Assembly (NCBI RefSeq): GCF_000017625.1
Contig: NC_009712.1
Coordinates: forward strand, 744,001-808,000
Length of the DNA: 64,000 nucleotides
Origin: Methanoregula boonei 6A8
Lineage (GTDB): Archaea; Halobacteriota; Methanomicrobia; Methanomicrobiales; Methanospirillaceae
Direction: 5' to 3'
In this document: positions 8,895 through 54,384 of the stretch, in pieces
How positions within the stretch are numbered: the first letter of the stretch is position 1
Layout: every line of letters begins with the position of its first letter
Position numbers and translations under genes: made by a program
Notes under the pieces: model-generated
What the model saw: only the letters and a program-made list of their open reading frames with translations
Told to the model about the DNA's origin: nothing
Databases searched by the model: none

Positions 8895-11084
8895 TTATTG
8901 CCCGCCCGTGCCGGTAAACCGGTACCCGTCTTTTGGGATAAGGATCTCGAACCGGGCCCCTTTCCCGTACTCGCCGGTCTCATGGATTGTGATCCCGGTG
9001 ATGGAGAGGATCTCGCGGGTAAAAAACAGCCCCATGTCATGGTACTCTGCGTACCCCTTCTCGAAGATCTTCTCCTTTAAGTCCCCGGGGACACCGGGGC
9101 CATTATCGGAAAAGATGAGGACAAGCCCGTCCGGGACAACCCGGCAGGAGAGGTGTATCTCTGTGGCCTCTTTTGCATGCTGGATCACGTTCTCTTCAAG
9201 GGTCACAAATACCTCTTCAAGCAGGGGATCGGCAAAGACCTCGAGCCCCCTTACCTCCGAAACACAGGAGATCCTTTTTATATCGAGATGGGAGACGGCA
9301 AAGAGGAAGGACTGGTTTACGTCCTGCCATCTGGGGGGAGTCAGCCCCAGGTTCTTGTAATTGTCGGCAAACCGGAGGATCCTGAGGATCGTCTGTATGA
9401 CCCGGTGCTGCTTCTCGTGGTACTCAAGGATCTTCTCTGCATCCGTGCTCTCTTTTTCCAGTTCGAGATATCCCGAGAGGGTGAAGATCGCATTCTGGAT
9501 GTTCTGGAAGGTGATCGTGTTAAAGAAATTAAGTTTCTTTCTGGCCAGGTCGAGCGCGGCCTGGTTCTTTTTGAGCCGGTTGAAGTTCTCTTTGAGTTCT
9601 GCCTGCGCTGACAGCAGCTGCTCCCGTGCCCCAGAAAGCTCCTCGTTTTTCCTGACCAGTTCCTGCTCGAACCCCTTGCGCTGTGAGATGTCCCGGATGA
9701 TCCCCTCGATGCCCGCCAGTGTGCCGTCGGGCGCAGGATAGGTATGGCTTGTGGTGGAGACCGCGATAACGGATCCGTCCTTCCTTTTTGCCATGATGTC
9801 ATAGTCCTGAACGGATCCGTTCTTCCGGATCGCGGCAAGGACACTTTCCCGTTCCCCGGGATCCGCATAGAGCGTGTCCCGGATGTTTTTCCCGAGAATC
9901 TCATCTGCGGAGGTATAGCCGAAGAGTTTTATTCCCGACGGCGAGAGCATTACCAGGTTCCCGTCCGGGTCGGTGCGGTAGAACACGTCCTGGATATCCT
10001 CTAAGATCGAACGGTAGGTCCGTTCGCTCTCGCGGAGCAACTCCTGGGTCCTGCGCCGCTCGGAGAGTTCCTCTGAGAGTTCCCGGGTCTTCTGGGCCAC
10101 CGCATGGCGGAGGGTGTTGTTCCAGAGGATGATGATACCGATTATAACAAAAAGGAGAACAACGCCGGAGATAATGGCCCAGATTATCCGGGTATCGAAC
10201 GGGGACGTCTGGAACTCCTGCGGGATCCAGCGGTTGGCGATCTGTGTTCTCTCTTCCGGGGTGATCGCAAGGATTGCCTTGTTGAGGATATCGCGCAGTT
10301 CCGGTTCATTTGCCCGGACACCGATGGCAAGCTGGAACTGCGTTGGATCGGGCGGCACGTATTCCCCGGCAACCCGCAGGTTGGAAAGACCCCCCTGTTC
10401 GATATACCAGCTCGCGGTCGGGAGATCGCCCAGGTAGGCATCCGTCCTCCCCAGCGAAACATCCAGGAGGCCGGTCCGGATGTCGGGCTCGGTCCTGACC
10501 TCGATACCGGGGTACTTCTCTTTGAGCAGGTCGTAGGAGGTGTACCCGTTTACCGCCGCAACGGTCATGCCTTTGAAGTCATCAAGCGACAGCATGCCCG
10601 TGACATTTCTGGTAGTGATGATCACCAGCGGCGGCTGGTAGAGCGGCAGGGTATAGTTCAGGTACCCGGTGCGGAGGTCCGAGGTATATACCGCGCCCAG
10701 GAGATCGCTCTGGTTGGCCTGTATCATGGAAACGCAGACCGACCAGTTATCCTGCCGGGTATCGGTGATGTTGAGGCCGGTCTTTTGTGCGAGCAGGTGG
10801 AGATAGTCCGCAGAAATGCCGGAATAGTTTCCTGTCTGGTCGTAAAATTCAAAGGGAGGGTAGTTTGGATCAGGACAGACCACAACGACCGGGTGTTGGG
10901 CGATCCAGCGCTGCTCATCGGGGGAAAGCGTGACCGGGGTTACCGGTGTTGTCCCGGGGCCTCCGGTCCCGGGCGGGGCACCGGCGGCCAAAAAATAGTA
11001 TGCCCCCCCGGCAAGTGCGGCGAAAGAAAGGATGATGACCGCGGTGATGAGGATAGTTCGCTGTGATATACCCGCCGCGGTCAA
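8895..11084 (-). CDS. Membrane sensor protein: solute-binding, PAS and HATPase domains, no phosphoacceptor His
   Basis: A 729-residue protein with N-terminal membrane helix (residues ~8-32), an extracellular SBP_bac_3-type solute-binding domain (~48-290, with CPDPNYPPFEF), a second membrane helix (~298-322), a coiled coil, a PAS domain (~345-465) and a C-terminal HATPase domain. The ATPase boxes look present: LEENVIQHA, SDNGPGVP, GKGARFE. In the helix where related methanogen kinases carry RHDI, this protein reads ITFQNIQNAI, so the phosphoacceptor His is missing. It starts with TTG at 11084, behind AGGGGAAA. It probably senses an amino acid-like solute but may signal by ATP binding or partner control rather than autophosphorylation. 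Confidence 0.85.
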   Translation of the reverse strand: MTAAGISQRTILITAVIILSFAALAGGAYYFLAAGAPPGTGGPGTTPVTPVTLSPDEQRWIAQHPVVVVCPDPNYPPFEFYDQTGNYSGISADYLHLLAQKTGLNITDTRQDNWSVCVSMIQANQSDLLGAVYTSDLRTGYLNYTLPLYQPPLVIITTRNVTGMLSLDDFKGMTVAAVNGYTSYDLLKEKYPGIEVRTEPDIRTGLLDVSLGRTDAYLGDLPTASWYIEQGGLSNLRVAGEYVPPDPTQFQLAIGVRANEPELRDILNKAILAITPEERTQIANRWIPQEFQTSPFDTRIIWAIISGVVLLFVIIGIIILWNNTLRHAVAQKTRELSEELSERRRTQELLRESERTYRSILEDIQDVFYRTDPDGNLVMLSPSGIKLFGYTSADEILGKNIRDTLYADPGERESVLAAIRKNGSVQDYDIMAKRKDGSVIAVSTTSHTYPAPDGTLAGIEGIIRDISQRKGFEQELVRKNEELSGAREQLLSAQAELKENFNRLKKNQAALDLARKKLNFFNTITFQNIQNAIFTLSGYLELEKESTDAEKILEYHEKQHRVIQTILRILRFADNYKNLGLTPPRWQDVNQSFLFAVSHLDIKRISCVSEVRGLEVFADPLLEEVFVTLEENVIQHAKEATEIHLSCRVVPDGLVLIFSDNGPGVPGDLKEKIFEKGYAEYHDMGLFFTREILSITGITIHETGEYGKGARFEILIPKDGYRFTGTGGQ

Positions 11085-11242
11085 TCTGTTTCCCCTTAAT
11101 GTACTCTCACTCTTTTTGTATGATATATAACCGTCGGCCGGTCACCGCGGGTCCCAAAGGTTCACGGTATGCCGTGACTCAAAAAGGCCGGGAATGACCT
11201 GCTTTTATAGGGTGCCGGCGCACACGTGTTTTTGCGGGAAGT

Positions 11243-21625: not shown

Positions 21626-23002
21626 ATGCTCTCCGTGCTGATTATCGACGACGAGGAAGAAGTTCTCTCCGTCACCCGGATGTTTTTGGAACGGTTCGGC
21701 GACATGAAGGTGGTGACCTCGGGATCTGCAAAAGACTCCCTTTCCCTCTTAAACAACCAGACCTTTGATGCGATCATTGTTGATTACGATATGCCCGAGA
21801 TCAACGGGATCGAGTTTTTAAAAATCCTCCGCTCCAAGGGGGATGCGACACCTGTTATCATCTTTACCGGGGTAGGCCGGGAATATGCAGCCATCGAGGC
21901 GCTCAACAACGGCGCGAACTTCTACTTAAAAAAAGGCGAGGAGATCCAGCCCCAGCTCCGCGAAATGGTTCATATGATCCGGCGGGCAGTTGAGGGAAAG
22001 GTGGTGGGAAAGGGCATTGGCACTACCCAGAAGATCTTAAGCGACGCAGTCCGGTTTATCTCCGAACCTGCATTTGCCCTGGACCGCGACGGCAAGGTGA
22101 TCGCCTGGAACCATAGTATGGAGATGTTCTCGGGGGTTGCCGCGGCAGACATGGTGGGTAAAGGGGATCGCGTGTATGCCGTTCCCTTCTTTGGCCGCAA
22201 AGTGCCGCTTCTTGTTGACATGGTTTTTGAGGATGAACATGTTATCCGGAAGAACAACTTCTCCATTATCTCAAAGGAGGAAGGCACGATCCTTGCCTGG
22301 GCAAAGGCGCCGGCAAAGGAGGGTGGCGAGCGGATCCTCTGGATGAAGGCCACGCCCCTGTACGACGGGCGGGGGATCTTTGTGGGGATCATCGGGGCCA
22401 TCCGCGATATCACCCATTCCGTGGGTACCGATCTCCTCCTCCAGAAAGAAGAAGAGAGTTCCGGGAAGGTGGAGAAGGTGGATGTCCCCACCGGGCAGGG
22501 CAAGATGTTTGACCGGCTGCTCGGGAAGTCCAAATCCAACTACCAGGAGGGGCTCCGGCTCTATTACCGGGAGGGGAAGTACGAGGAGGCGATTGCTGCC
22601 TTTGACCGGGCACTCGAGATCGAGCCCTCGCATGCATGGGCCTGGCACGACCGGGGAGTCTGCCTGAGGGCTCTGGAGAGAAACGAGGATGCCCTTGCTT
22701 CCATCTCAAAGGCGCTCGAACTCTCCCCGTCCGATGAGGAGATCCTCTTTACCTGCGGAGCAACCCTCCAGAAACTGGGAATCCTCCGGGACGACAACCA
22801 GATCCTCTCGGCGGCAGTCGACGCCTACAACCAGCTGCTGGACAAGAACCCGTCCGATGCCGATGCCTGGAACAACATGGGGATCTGCGTCCAGGCCATG
22901 GGCCGGGACGATCTCTCCCGGCAGTACTTTGAGCGGGCAAAGGATCTCCGGCGCTATAATAAGGAGAAGATCCGCCGGCGCAATCTGGAATCCCTGGTCT
23001 GA
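21626..23002 (+). CDS. Response regulator with REC, PAS-like and TPR domains
   Basis: A 458-residue protein with an N-terminal receiver domain (residues 1-120): acidic pocket IIDDEE, phosphoacceptor Asp53 in IIVDYDMPE, FTG and YLKKG. A PAS-type domain follows (~145-270, with WMKATPLYDGRGIF) and then two to three TPR units from ~300 to 440 (YEEAIAAFDRALEIEPSHAW). No DNA-binding or output-enzyme domain is present, so signalling probably works through protein contacts made by the TPRs. It stands alone, near ferritin and a ferredoxin-type gene, and no kinase gene is adjacent. Confidence 0.88.
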   Translation: MLSVLIIDDEEEVLSVTRMFLERFGDMKVVTSGSAKDSLSLLNNQTFDAIIVDYDMPEINGIEFLKILRSKGDATPVIIFTGVGREYAAIEALNNGANFYLKKGEEIQPQLREMVHMIRRAVEGKVVGKGIGTTQKILSDAVRFISEPAFALDRDGKVIAWNHSMEMFSGVAAADMVGKGDRVYAVPFFGRKVPLLVDMVFEDEHVIRKNNFSIISKEEGTILAWAKAPAKEGGERILWMKATPLYDGRGIFVGIIGAIRDITHSVGTDLLLQKEEESSGKVEKVDVPTGQGKMFDRLLGKSKSNYQEGLRLYYREGKYEEAIAAFDRALEIEPSHAWAWHDRGVCLRALERNEDALASISKALELSPSDEEILFTCGATLQKLGILRDDNQILSAAVDAYNQLLDKNPSDADAWNNMGICVQAMGRDDLSRQYFERAKDLRRYNKEKIRRRNLESLV

Positions 23003-52236: not shown

Positions 52237-54384
52237 CTAATTTCTTTCCCTGAACCGTCCTTTGGGTACGACAAGTTCAAAGCGGATACCTTCTCCTGTC
52301 CCCCCGGTCTCGGTGATGGCGATTCCGGTAAATCCGAGCAGCTCGCGTATCAAAAAGAGGCTGACCATATCATCGTGGCTGTACCCGAATTCAAAGATCC
52401 TCTCCTTCTCATGGGCCGGGATGCCCGGGCTGTCGTCTTCATAGACAAGAACAAGGGAATCGTTGCTCCTGCGGGCGGTCATACGGATAGCCGAGAGAAC
52501 CGGGCCCCCGCGCCGGAAAGAGAGCGAAAGGAGGCTAAAGAAGATCCTTGGGAGGAGCGGATCGGCAAAGATCTCGATCTTCCCCACACTGGTGCTGATA
52601 TCTGCCGTATGTTCGGGCAGCATCTGTATGGCCTCGGCAAATGCCTGGTTCACGGATTGCCACCGGGGCGCGATAACGCCGGGGTTCTGGAGCGCCCGTT
52701 CGTATGCGATCTGGTTCTTGATGGATTCCACCGAGCCAATCGTCTTATCAAAGAACATCTGCATGGCCTCGTGGGTGGTCTTGAGCTGGGCACGCTCGAG
52801 ATACGTAATGATGATTGCGAGCTGGTCGAGAATATCGCTCCGGGTAATAGAGAAGATCAGGTCCCGCTTCAGCGTTACTGCCTCGTCAGTTACATCTTCT
52901 GCTATCCCAAGCATATACCGCACGGAACGTTTTGAATCGTAGATCGGGACGATGATGATATGGATCAGGCGTTCTCCCCGCGATTTCGAATGGATCTTTC
53001 TGTACTTGATCTCCACCCGTGATGCAAGGGCGCCGGTCTCCTCTTTTTTAATCTGCTCCGCCACTGCCGCAGAGAAGATCTCGGCATCGGTCTTCCCGAT
53101 CATATCCTTTGCCGGGCGTTCGAAGATCTCTTCGCTTGCCCGGTTCCAGAATGTATAGGTCCCGGTATCTGTCTCCTTGAGGAAGATCCCCACCGGCATC
53201 TGGTCGATAAGGTCCCGGTGGAAGATCTCCTCGTCGTTGAGCCGGGCTGTAGCGGACTTGAGCGAATCCACCATGGTATTGATGCTCTTTTCCAGGATCA
53301 CGAACTCCCGTGCGTCTGTTGTCCCGATGCGGTGGTCAAAGTCCCCGTTTGCGATGATATCCGCATCATGTGCTATTTTCTCTATCGGGCGGGTCATCCT
53401 GCGTGACAGTAAAAAAGCAAGGCAGCATCCAATTCCGAGGGCGCATCCTCCAAAGAGGAGGTGGAAAAGAACGAGGTGGTTGAGGTCATTCCGGACGCGC
53501 CCGGTATCGTACGTGAGCACAACCACCCTGCTCATATCGGAGCCGTACTGGGGGTTATTCAGATCGACAAAGAGGTACCGTGTCTCGGTATGGTTGGCCG
53601 CATCGTCCGTTTCAATAGTTGACCTGCTGGTAATTGCCTGCTGGATATATGATTCGGTGACCGTGTCCGGCAAGCTGTCATCGGCAGTACTATGTCCCGT
53701 CGTATCAAAGACCTGGTACTGACTGATGAACGGATTAAAGGACACAAACCTGGCAATGTTATCCCGGTCATCAAGCCTGAGGTTGGTTGTGTTAAAATCA
53801 GGGGGCGAGTACCCCAGCTCCAGGATATACTGGTGATCCGGCGTTGCCTCGTAGGCATATTTCATGAACCTGCCGTCAGGGATCTCGCGGACCACCCGAT
53901 CCGGGAAAAAACCCTGTGACATACGGACTTTTGTCAGGTACGCATAAAAATAGGGAATGCTCTGGAAGTCCACACCCTGCTCAGCAGGATATGTGGTATA
54001 AACGATCACCCCGGATTCGTTGATGATATAGATATCGTATCCCTCTCCGAGCGCAGCCTGGACTCTGGTGAGGTTCATGGTTTGCGGGTTCTCACCGGAT
54101 CGGTTGTATTCTGTAAAGAGAACCGCAAATCCGGCTTTCATCTGCGTGTTGAGCTGATCGTCGAGGACGGTAGTAGCCGAGTCGTCCAGCCGTAATGCAG
54201 CGCCGATGGTGTCCTCCGTCTGGTTTTGCAGGTTTGAAAATTCCGCATCTGTGCTGGTTTTGAGACTAAAATAGTCGTAAATGGTCATGATGGTGACCAG
54301 GACAACGACAATGAGGACCATAGTGACCAGAAGTGACCGGGAGAACGAGTGATTGTTTCCAGGATCTGGTCTCTGTTCCTTCAT
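52237..54384 (-). CDS. Membrane sensor protein (Cache-like, HAMP, PAS, degenerate HATPase)
   Basis: A 715-residue protein with a first membrane helix (~13-33), an extracellular Cache-like domain (~40-300) and a second helix (~303-328). A HAMP region follows (~330-385), then a PAS domain (~390-505) and a C-terminal HATPase-like domain. Where kinases have RHDI it reads ITRSDILDQLAI, so the His is missing. The N-box equivalent (FFSLLSLSFRRG) has no Asn and the G1 box reads YEDDSPGIP. It probably cannot autophosphorylate and may act as a ligand-sensing scaffold. Confidence 0.82.
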   Translation of the reverse strand: MKEQRPDPGNNHSFSRSLLVTMVLIVVVLVTIMTIYDYFSLKTSTDAEFSNLQNQTEDTIGAALRLDDSATTVLDDQLNTQMKAGFAVLFTEYNRSGENPQTMNLTRVQAALGEGYDIYIINESGVIVYTTYPAEQGVDFQSIPYFYAYLTKVRMSQGFFPDRVVREIPDGRFMKYAYEATPDHQYILELGYSPPDFNTTNLRLDDRDNIARFVSFNPFISQYQVFDTTGHSTADDSLPDTVTESYIQQAITSRSTIETDDAANHTETRYLFVDLNNPQYGSDMSRVVVLTYDTGRVRNDLNHLVLFHLLFGGCALGIGCCLAFLLSRRMTRPIEKIAHDADIIANGDFDHRIGTTDAREFVILEKSINTMVDSLKSATARLNDEEIFHRDLIDQMPVGIFLKETDTGTYTFWNRASEEIFERPAKDMIGKTDAEIFSAAVAEQIKKEETGALASRVEIKYRKIHSKSRGERLIHIIIVPIYDSKRSVRYMLGIAEDVTDEAVTLKRDLIFSITRSDILDQLAIIITYLERAQLKTTHEAMQMFFDKTIGSVESIKNQIAYERALQNPGVIAPRWQSVNQAFAEAIQMLPEHTADISTSVGKIEIFADPLLPRIFFSLLSLSFRRGGPVLSAIRMTARRSNDSLVLVYEDDSPGIPAHEKERIFEFGYSHDDMVSLFLIRELLGFTGIAITETGGTGEGIRFELVVPKGRFRERN

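Follow-up and report, generated by a model that had tools for sequence, protein, structure and literature searches.

A putative histidine pseudokinase receptor of Methanoregula boonei and its His-less relatives in methanogens

A predicted membrane receptor of Methanoregula boonei 6A8 joins an SBP_bac_3 sensor and a PAS domain to a two-component transmitter that has no phosphoacceptor histidine, and trees of related transmitter cores show the loss extending across an entire clade of methanogen proteins, which share a near-invariant Ser-His pair elsewhere in the core. Because many relatives have lost the same His, the protein looks like a type of receptor that works through partner proteins and not like a broken gene. 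Our preferred reading, held with moderate confidence and drawn from sequence comparison, is that it would be a kinase-dead, possibly nucleotide-binding receptor (a histidine pseudokinase) acting on response regulators or partner kinases, like DivL.

The receptor and its transmitter motifs

The window analysed here is a stretch of 64,000 nucleotides (contig NC_009712.1, positions 744,001 to 808,000), in which the gene forms one uninterrupted frame. Judging by the ORF list and Pfam matches, every domain is recognisable and the start region is plausible. The layout, in window coordinates, is:

8895–11084, minus strand: open reading frame of 729 aa with a TTG start, encoding Venus-flytrap sensor, transmembrane helix, PAS, His-less DHp and CA in that order
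11123–11130, minus strand: TTATATAT, candidate archaeal TATA-like stretch, read from the sequence
11092–11097, minus strand: AAGGGG, candidate Shine-Dalgarno-like stretch upstream of the TTG start, read from the sequence
10983–11057, minus strand: first hydrophobic stretch, residues about 10–34, a signal or transmembrane helix (hydropathy above 1.8 in windows starting at residues 6–16)
10221–10883, minus strand: SBP_bac_3 / Venus-flytrap sensor, residues 68–288 (Pfam E 3.4e-19)
10119–10187, minus strand: second transmembrane helix, residues about 300–322 (hydropathy up to 3.07)
9675–10016, minus strand: PAS domain, residues 357–470 (Pfam PAS_9 at 369–468, PAS and PAS_4; TIGR00229)
9354–9584, minus strand: DHp-like helical hairpin, residues 501–577, without any conserved His (AlphaFold2 model and alignments)
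8931–9224, minus strand: CA (HATPase_c) domain, residues 621–718 (Pfam E 1.2e-10)

The TATA-like stretch suggests that the gene may have its own promoter. The preliminary description of this DNA had called the protein a solute-binding/PAS sensor with a fused SBP_bac_3 domain, and the SBP_bac_3 and PAS_9 matches agree with it. Compared with solved structures, the sensor matches BvgS (4q0c, E 6.6e-51), a domain of an EAL protein (7ejg, E 1.3e-38) and EvgS (9ilw, E 1.4e-34), all of which outrank transporter binding proteins; the protein is the sole SBP_bac_3 match at E ≤ 0.001 in its own genome (2,542,943 bp searched). Pfam gave no match to HisKA, Response_reg or Hpt at E ≤ 1 in this protein, whose chain stops soon after the CA domain. 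The tested neighbours of the gene are PEMT/ICMT-like, no-hit and GNAT genes, and no response-regulator or kinase gene adjoins it among them.

Two further signalling ORFs were seen elsewhere in the window. One (52237–54384, minus strand) encodes a second His-less histidine-kinase-like receptor of 715 aa that falls outside the clade described below; it has RSDI for RHDI, has lost the N-box Asn (SLLSLSF), reads DDSPG at G1 and has no H599. The other (21626–23002, plus strand) combines a receiver domain at its N-terminus with a match to PAS and with TPR repeats.

Alignment placed the motifs of the transmitter as follows:

9498–9509, minus strand: FQNI (residues 526–529) where paralogues have RHDI, with Q527 at the phosphoacceptor place and N528 at the acidic place
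9492–9494, minus strand: N531, the H+4 residue, required by HisKA phosphatases (role from PMC3510030)
9288–9293, minus strand: S598-H599, the clade's Ser-His pair, at the end of the first CA helix and outside the DHp (alignment and model)
9189–9191, minus strand: N-box Asn, N632, kept
9093–9107, minus strand: G1 box DNGPG, residues 660–664, kept (D660, G662, G664)
9024–9038, minus strand: G2 box, residues 683–687, reading DMGLF, with the first Gly lost (D683)

That FQNI stands in for RHDI, as had been noted from the letters alone, was confirmed by alignment to the paralogues, and since the phosphoacceptor His is absent, phosphorylation at the usual site is excluded. The accompanying statement that the ATPase boxes look intact holds for the N-box and G1 but only in part for G2, and the ATP-lid NTG is gone as well. 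Set beside a HisKA-type kinase, the protein thus retains an HATPase_c domain with N and G1 boxes, and lacks both the phosphoacceptor His and a complete G2. As G2 is degenerate here and in part of the clade (G683 in 74 and G685 in 71 of 94 His-less clade rows), the protein may bind nucleotide only weakly, like DivL. Lost too is the acidic neighbour of the former His: 93 of the 94 His-less clade rows have D or E at 528, the window protein being the sole exception. HisKA proteins require the acid adjacent to the His for kinase activity only, and T or N at H+4 for phosphatase activity only (PMC3510030). The combination found here, no kinase acid but an H+4 Asn, would therefore favour an effect on response regulators.

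An AlphaFold2 model of the core (230-aa construct; mean pLDDT 91.1, pTM 0.85) predicts an ordinary DHp-CA fold, with DHp helices at construct residues 2–46 and 50–78 and residue 599 directly after the first CA helix (construct residues 90–99). In VIA-align, DivL (4q20) came first (Z 18.3, rmsd 5.1 over 214 residues), with 4u7n and 4kp4 tied within 1 Z; in Foldseek, 2c2a and HK853 complexes ranked first and DivL tenth. A shared fold of this kind does not show function.

A clade that has lost the phosphoacceptor histidine

Related cores were collected from the window protein's own genome (42 matches), from 40 genomes including it, and from named contigs (79 loci, best 80 matches), giving 127 and later 197 distinct cores. 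Because rows were gathered by similarity to the window protein or its clade, the ratios below are not a census. Trees were built without the motif columns, and the second also without residues 592–606; five of the 197 cores were left out of it, either for being under 190 aa long or for sharing 93% identity or more with a retained row. In the first tree, 55 of 58 rows on one side are His-less, against 4 of 69 on the other; in the second, 94 of 98 rows in the window protein's group are His-less, against 5 of 94 outside it (SH-aLRT 87, not starred). A lone mutation or a sequencing error is ruled out by the 94 of 98, and the His loss is common to the clade as a whole. The clade branch itself is not strongly supported, with SH-aLRT values of 90, 87 and 82 in three quick trees. 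A single origin of the clade together with six double-His rows (RHDIRNK type) was not rejected, with a p-AU of 0.33 in a 79-row subsample that excluded six odd or long-branch rows.

Members with a genus name belong to Methanoregula, Methanolinea, Methanospirillum and Methanoculleus, and other clade rows carry nothing finer than a family, order or phylum label (Methanoregulaceae, Methanospirillaceae, Methanomicrobiaceae, Methanomicrobiales or Euryarchaeota). The window protein has no close relative among the best 80 matches, the highest core identity being 57%. Of 199 genomes of the class searched with a profile that also hits true kinases, 171 had matches at E ≤ 1e-30. In the protein's own genome the His at 527 is absent from 5 of 38 full histidine kinase cores and present in 33; of the five, one (L066) is without H599 and another (L065) lies on the other side of the tree. 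Pfam HisKA matches were found in 0 of 62 clade and 5 of 21 His-bearing proteins, and in another set in 0 of 55 and 10 of 55, which is weak evidence because most His-bearing relatives fail the HisKA model too.

The former phosphoacceptor column is free. Residue 527, which is His in all 80 rows of the His-bearing comparison set, is Q in 43, N in 17, T in 12, S in 8, E in 4, D in 3, R in 3, K in 2 and A in 1 of the 94 His-less clade rows, with one gap and no Tyr, and the column ranks 153rd of 220 in conservation over the 98 tree-defined rows. A fixed Ser, Thr or Tyr replacement is thereby ruled out. A His shifted within the DHp helices was looked for as well, since the preliminary description would have yielded to one conserved at another place of the dimerisation helix. 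None was found in 55 or in 94 clade rows, no His column in the DHp helices reaching 20% in the 55 rows and the highest count, at residues 564 and 568, being 10 of 94. In the 55 rows the columns with at least 20% His are 599, 607 (11 of 55) and 636 (44 of 55, where His is common in true kinases too).

Other positions are held. F534 is present in 93 of the 94 His-less clade rows, and H+4 is N in 59, S in 17 and T in 15 of them; N and T together account for 74 rows, and 91 have one of N, T, S and Q. Both N632 and D660 are kept in 82 of 94, compared with 76 of 80 in the His-bearing set; the 12 rows that have lost one or the other all still have S598-H599. Close clade pairs are under purifying selection, with dN/dS well below 1 as in His-bearing pairs: of the 14 closest pairs listed (from 40 pairs with at least 70% identity, none including the window protein), the 13 for which it could be computed gave 0.05–0.43, and it was 0.06–0.23 in the 14 listed of 24 His-bearing pairs, many of the underlying dS values being above 1.

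The Ser-His pair is nearly invariant, S598 occurring in 97 and H599 in 96 of the 98 tree-defined rows, whereas H599 occurs in 10 of 94 rows outside the clade. Histidines at 527 and 599 are nearly reciprocal over all 197 cores: 99 have His at 599 only, 82 at 527 only, 11 at both and 5 at neither. Inside the clade of the second tree the same four counts are 94, 2, 2 and 0, and among the 94 rows outside it 1, 80, 9 and 4. This near exclusion is largely shared ancestry, because independent events are too few; repeated co-evolution of the two columns is unsupported, as starred branches yield only 2 independent pairs and the sign test gives p 1. H599 is retained even in the six His-less rows that lack N632 as well as D660, so its role seems not to need ATP in the same protein. 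One protein of the window protein's genome (L002, 395506–399177), its nearest own-genome paralogue in the core (48%), carries SHDI together with AISHLD, so that it may represent an intermediate state or else a reversion; a receiver-domain ORF (L105 7110–7766) overlaps the start of the L002 frame.

In this sample the clade also has more two-span receptors, more SBP_bac_3 sensors and fewer receiver domains than its His-bearing relatives. Among loci found with the core only, SBP_bac_3 is present in 18 of 62 clade and 0 of 21 His-bearing proteins (Fisher p 0.004), and receiver domains in 6 of 62 and 12 of 21 (p 2.6e-5); exactly two transmembrane-like stretches, counted by a simple hydropathy rule, occur in 31 of 61 clade and 2 of 21 His-bearing proteins, and in a larger set in 44 of 86 clade ORFs and 4 of 60 His-bearing ones. 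These Fisher tests ignore shared ancestry. The first set (SBP_bac_3 in 13 of 55 against 0 of 55, receiver domains in 3 of 55 against 20 of 55) points the same way, although its clade proteins came mostly from the full-length query and are biased towards SBP_bac_3 sensors. SBP sensors do not sit exclusively on His-less transmitters, as one ORF (L270) has its SBP domain fused to a transmitter with RHDI; among seven distinct ORFs with both SBP domain and core, from loci in ten genomes and by a search that missed some Pfam-positive ORFs, six are His-less.

Possible modes of action

As a histidine pseudokinase, the protein might work as follows. Ligand in the Venus-flytrap domain would move the DHp-CA dimer through the transmembrane and PAS-coiled-coil segments; the dimer would be incapable of autophosphorylation at the usual site; nucleotide bound by CA could tune the packing of CA against DHp; and output would be contact with response regulators that other kinases have phosphorylated (dephosphorylation or sequestration), or with a partner kinase as for DivL. 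Of these output steps, all of which we infer, we lean towards phosphatase action on response regulators or their sequestration. Several observations count against this reading: H+4 is Ser in 17 of 94 rows, H599 is left without an explanation, and no response-regulator or kinase gene adjoins. The retention of the acid in the rest of the clade weighs in the same direction, because a kinase-only acid would be superfluous for a pure phosphatase, and it leaves room there for phosphorylation in trans.

Such trans-phosphorylation, which we rate as unlikely, would make the His-less protein part of a split or mixed kinase: it would pair with a His-bearing kinase, either a paralogue or a HisKA protein without an ATPase domain, and its CA would phosphorylate the partner's His. 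The near-universal acid would fit, and the genome offers candidates in the 33 cores with His at 527. Around clade members a His-bearing histidine kinase core lies within 2.5 kb at 7 of 47 loci and any histidine kinase core at 16, counted only where 3 kb were available on both sides, a filter that left just 5 His-bearing loci and so no fair comparison with true kinases. Four loci (L108, L110, L114 and L170, labels read by eye) repeat one order, a His-bearing RHDV kinase, a dehydrogenase-like ORF of about 390–400 aa and a clade member (FQDIQTA). Methanomicrobia also have HisKA proteins with the His and without HATPase (PMC5847659), and CheA3/CheA4 and split EnvZ are precedents (PMC3591291). However, no other histidine kinase core is nearby at 31 of the 47 loci, no conserved one-to-one partner was found, the 12 rows that have lost N632 or D660 still carry S598-H599, and the window protein itself is without the acid and one G2 Gly.

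One protein of the window protein's own genome (L069, at about 1095791–1096456) keeps RHDI and has lost the N-box and G1 (FETALNSPS, VEHEDAA), and might partner with an ATP-competent His-less protein. At another site two His-less histidine kinase cores (L074 and L075) adjoin on the same strand, a short RQDI protein without H599 and a clade member reading FQDIQAG.

The conserved residues might serve structure or docking only. N522, F526, Q530 and F534 on one side of DHp helix 1, together with L594, I597, S598 and H599 on CA helix 1, would then form a remodelled interface between DHp and CA, locking the transmitter. Of the 12 columns that tell 55 clade rows from 65 His-bearing ones at chosen thresholds, these residues make up 8, and the four-residue spacing of the DHp members puts them on one helix face, yet the columns could reflect ancestry alone, and we consider this quite improbable; clade-specific I597 is V597 in the window protein. 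Equally much a long shot, in our view, is the broader idea that in this clade the near-invariant S598-H599 of the CA domain has taken over phosphoryl chemistry or docking from DHp helix 1; if true, these methanogens would have a receptor family whose transmitter follows a design undescribed among two-component systems.

Very doubtful is the proposal that H599, in an H-box-like S-H-[LI]-D motif of the first CA helix, is phosphorylated in place of the lost His. The concentration of the Ser-His pair in the clade and the near reciprocity with 527 would suit it, and rows with both histidines, such as L002, could be intermediates; but the reciprocity is mostly shared ancestry, H599 persists where N632 and D660 are both gone, and we know of no precedent for a phosphoacceptor inside the CA fold. 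Least probable of all is that the gene is a decaying former clade member: it departs from the clade consensus at D528, G683 and Q577, among others, but its frame is uninterrupted with recognisable domains and a plausible start region, and the His loss is common to a clade whose close pairs show purifying selection.

Place among histidine-less transmitters

The window protein resembles BvgS and EvgS in its Venus-flytrap sensor of SBP_bac_3 type, transmembrane helix, PAS domain and transmitter, and differs in having one Venus-flytrap domain, no receiver or Hpt found and no phosphoacceptor His. C-terminal receiver and Hpt domains are typical of BvgS and EvgS. Closest to the pseudokinase we propose is DivL of Caulobacter, which likewise has PAS and a DHp-CA core, no phosphoacceptor His and largely retained CA motifs. 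DivL, which has neither kinase nor phosphatase activity, binds phosphorylated DivK and, weakly, a nucleotide analogue; it carries Tyr at the site (Ala in one orthologue) and is described for alphaproteobacteria (PMC4211667), whereas in the methanogen clade the site is free across many paralogues, H599 is near-invariant and the sensor is often extracellular. RcsD of E. coli is also sensor-like with a transmitter without the conserved His, but has a phosphorelay role via its own receiver domain (PMC3842833), and none was found in the window protein. In laboratory-evolved ChrS, a pseudokinase acts through a heterodimer with its paralogue HrrS (PMC9491836). Rhodobacter CheA3/CheA4 and other split histidine kinases place the ATP-binding part and the phosphoacceptor on separate polypeptides, a likeness only if a partner model holds; they differ in being of CheA type, and the genome count in the same article concerns HisKA proteins without HATPase, the reverse case (PMC3591291). 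The archaeal proteins with HisKA and no HATPase, mainly from Archaeoglobi and Methanomicrobia, also have half of the histidine kinase machinery, but as a mirror image, with the His kept and the ATPase absent (PMC5847659).

The studied histidine pseudokinases cited for comparison are bacterial. To our knowledge, few histidine pseudokinases have studied roles. The preliminary description had proposed that ATP-binding sensors of this sort form a distinct signalling class; a His-less group, mostly with N-box and G1 residues and enriched in SBP_bac_3 within our sample, bears out part of this, but the kind itself is not wholly new, as single His-less transmitters are already known in DivL (PMC4211667) and RcsD (PMC3842833). 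Within the literature searched, of partial coverage, we found no report of a methanogen clade in which the phosphoacceptor column is free and a His in CA is near-invariant; PMC6748860, in the part consulted, concerns an unrelated His.

What the methanogen clade adds is many paralogues in which the former active site varies, a new His is near-invariant and extracellular sensors are favoured. As a family of pseudokinases it would show that a two-component repertoire can contain a layer of non-phosphorylating receptors, and HATPase-based counts of archaeal histidine kinases include proteins that are unable to self-phosphorylate at the usual site.
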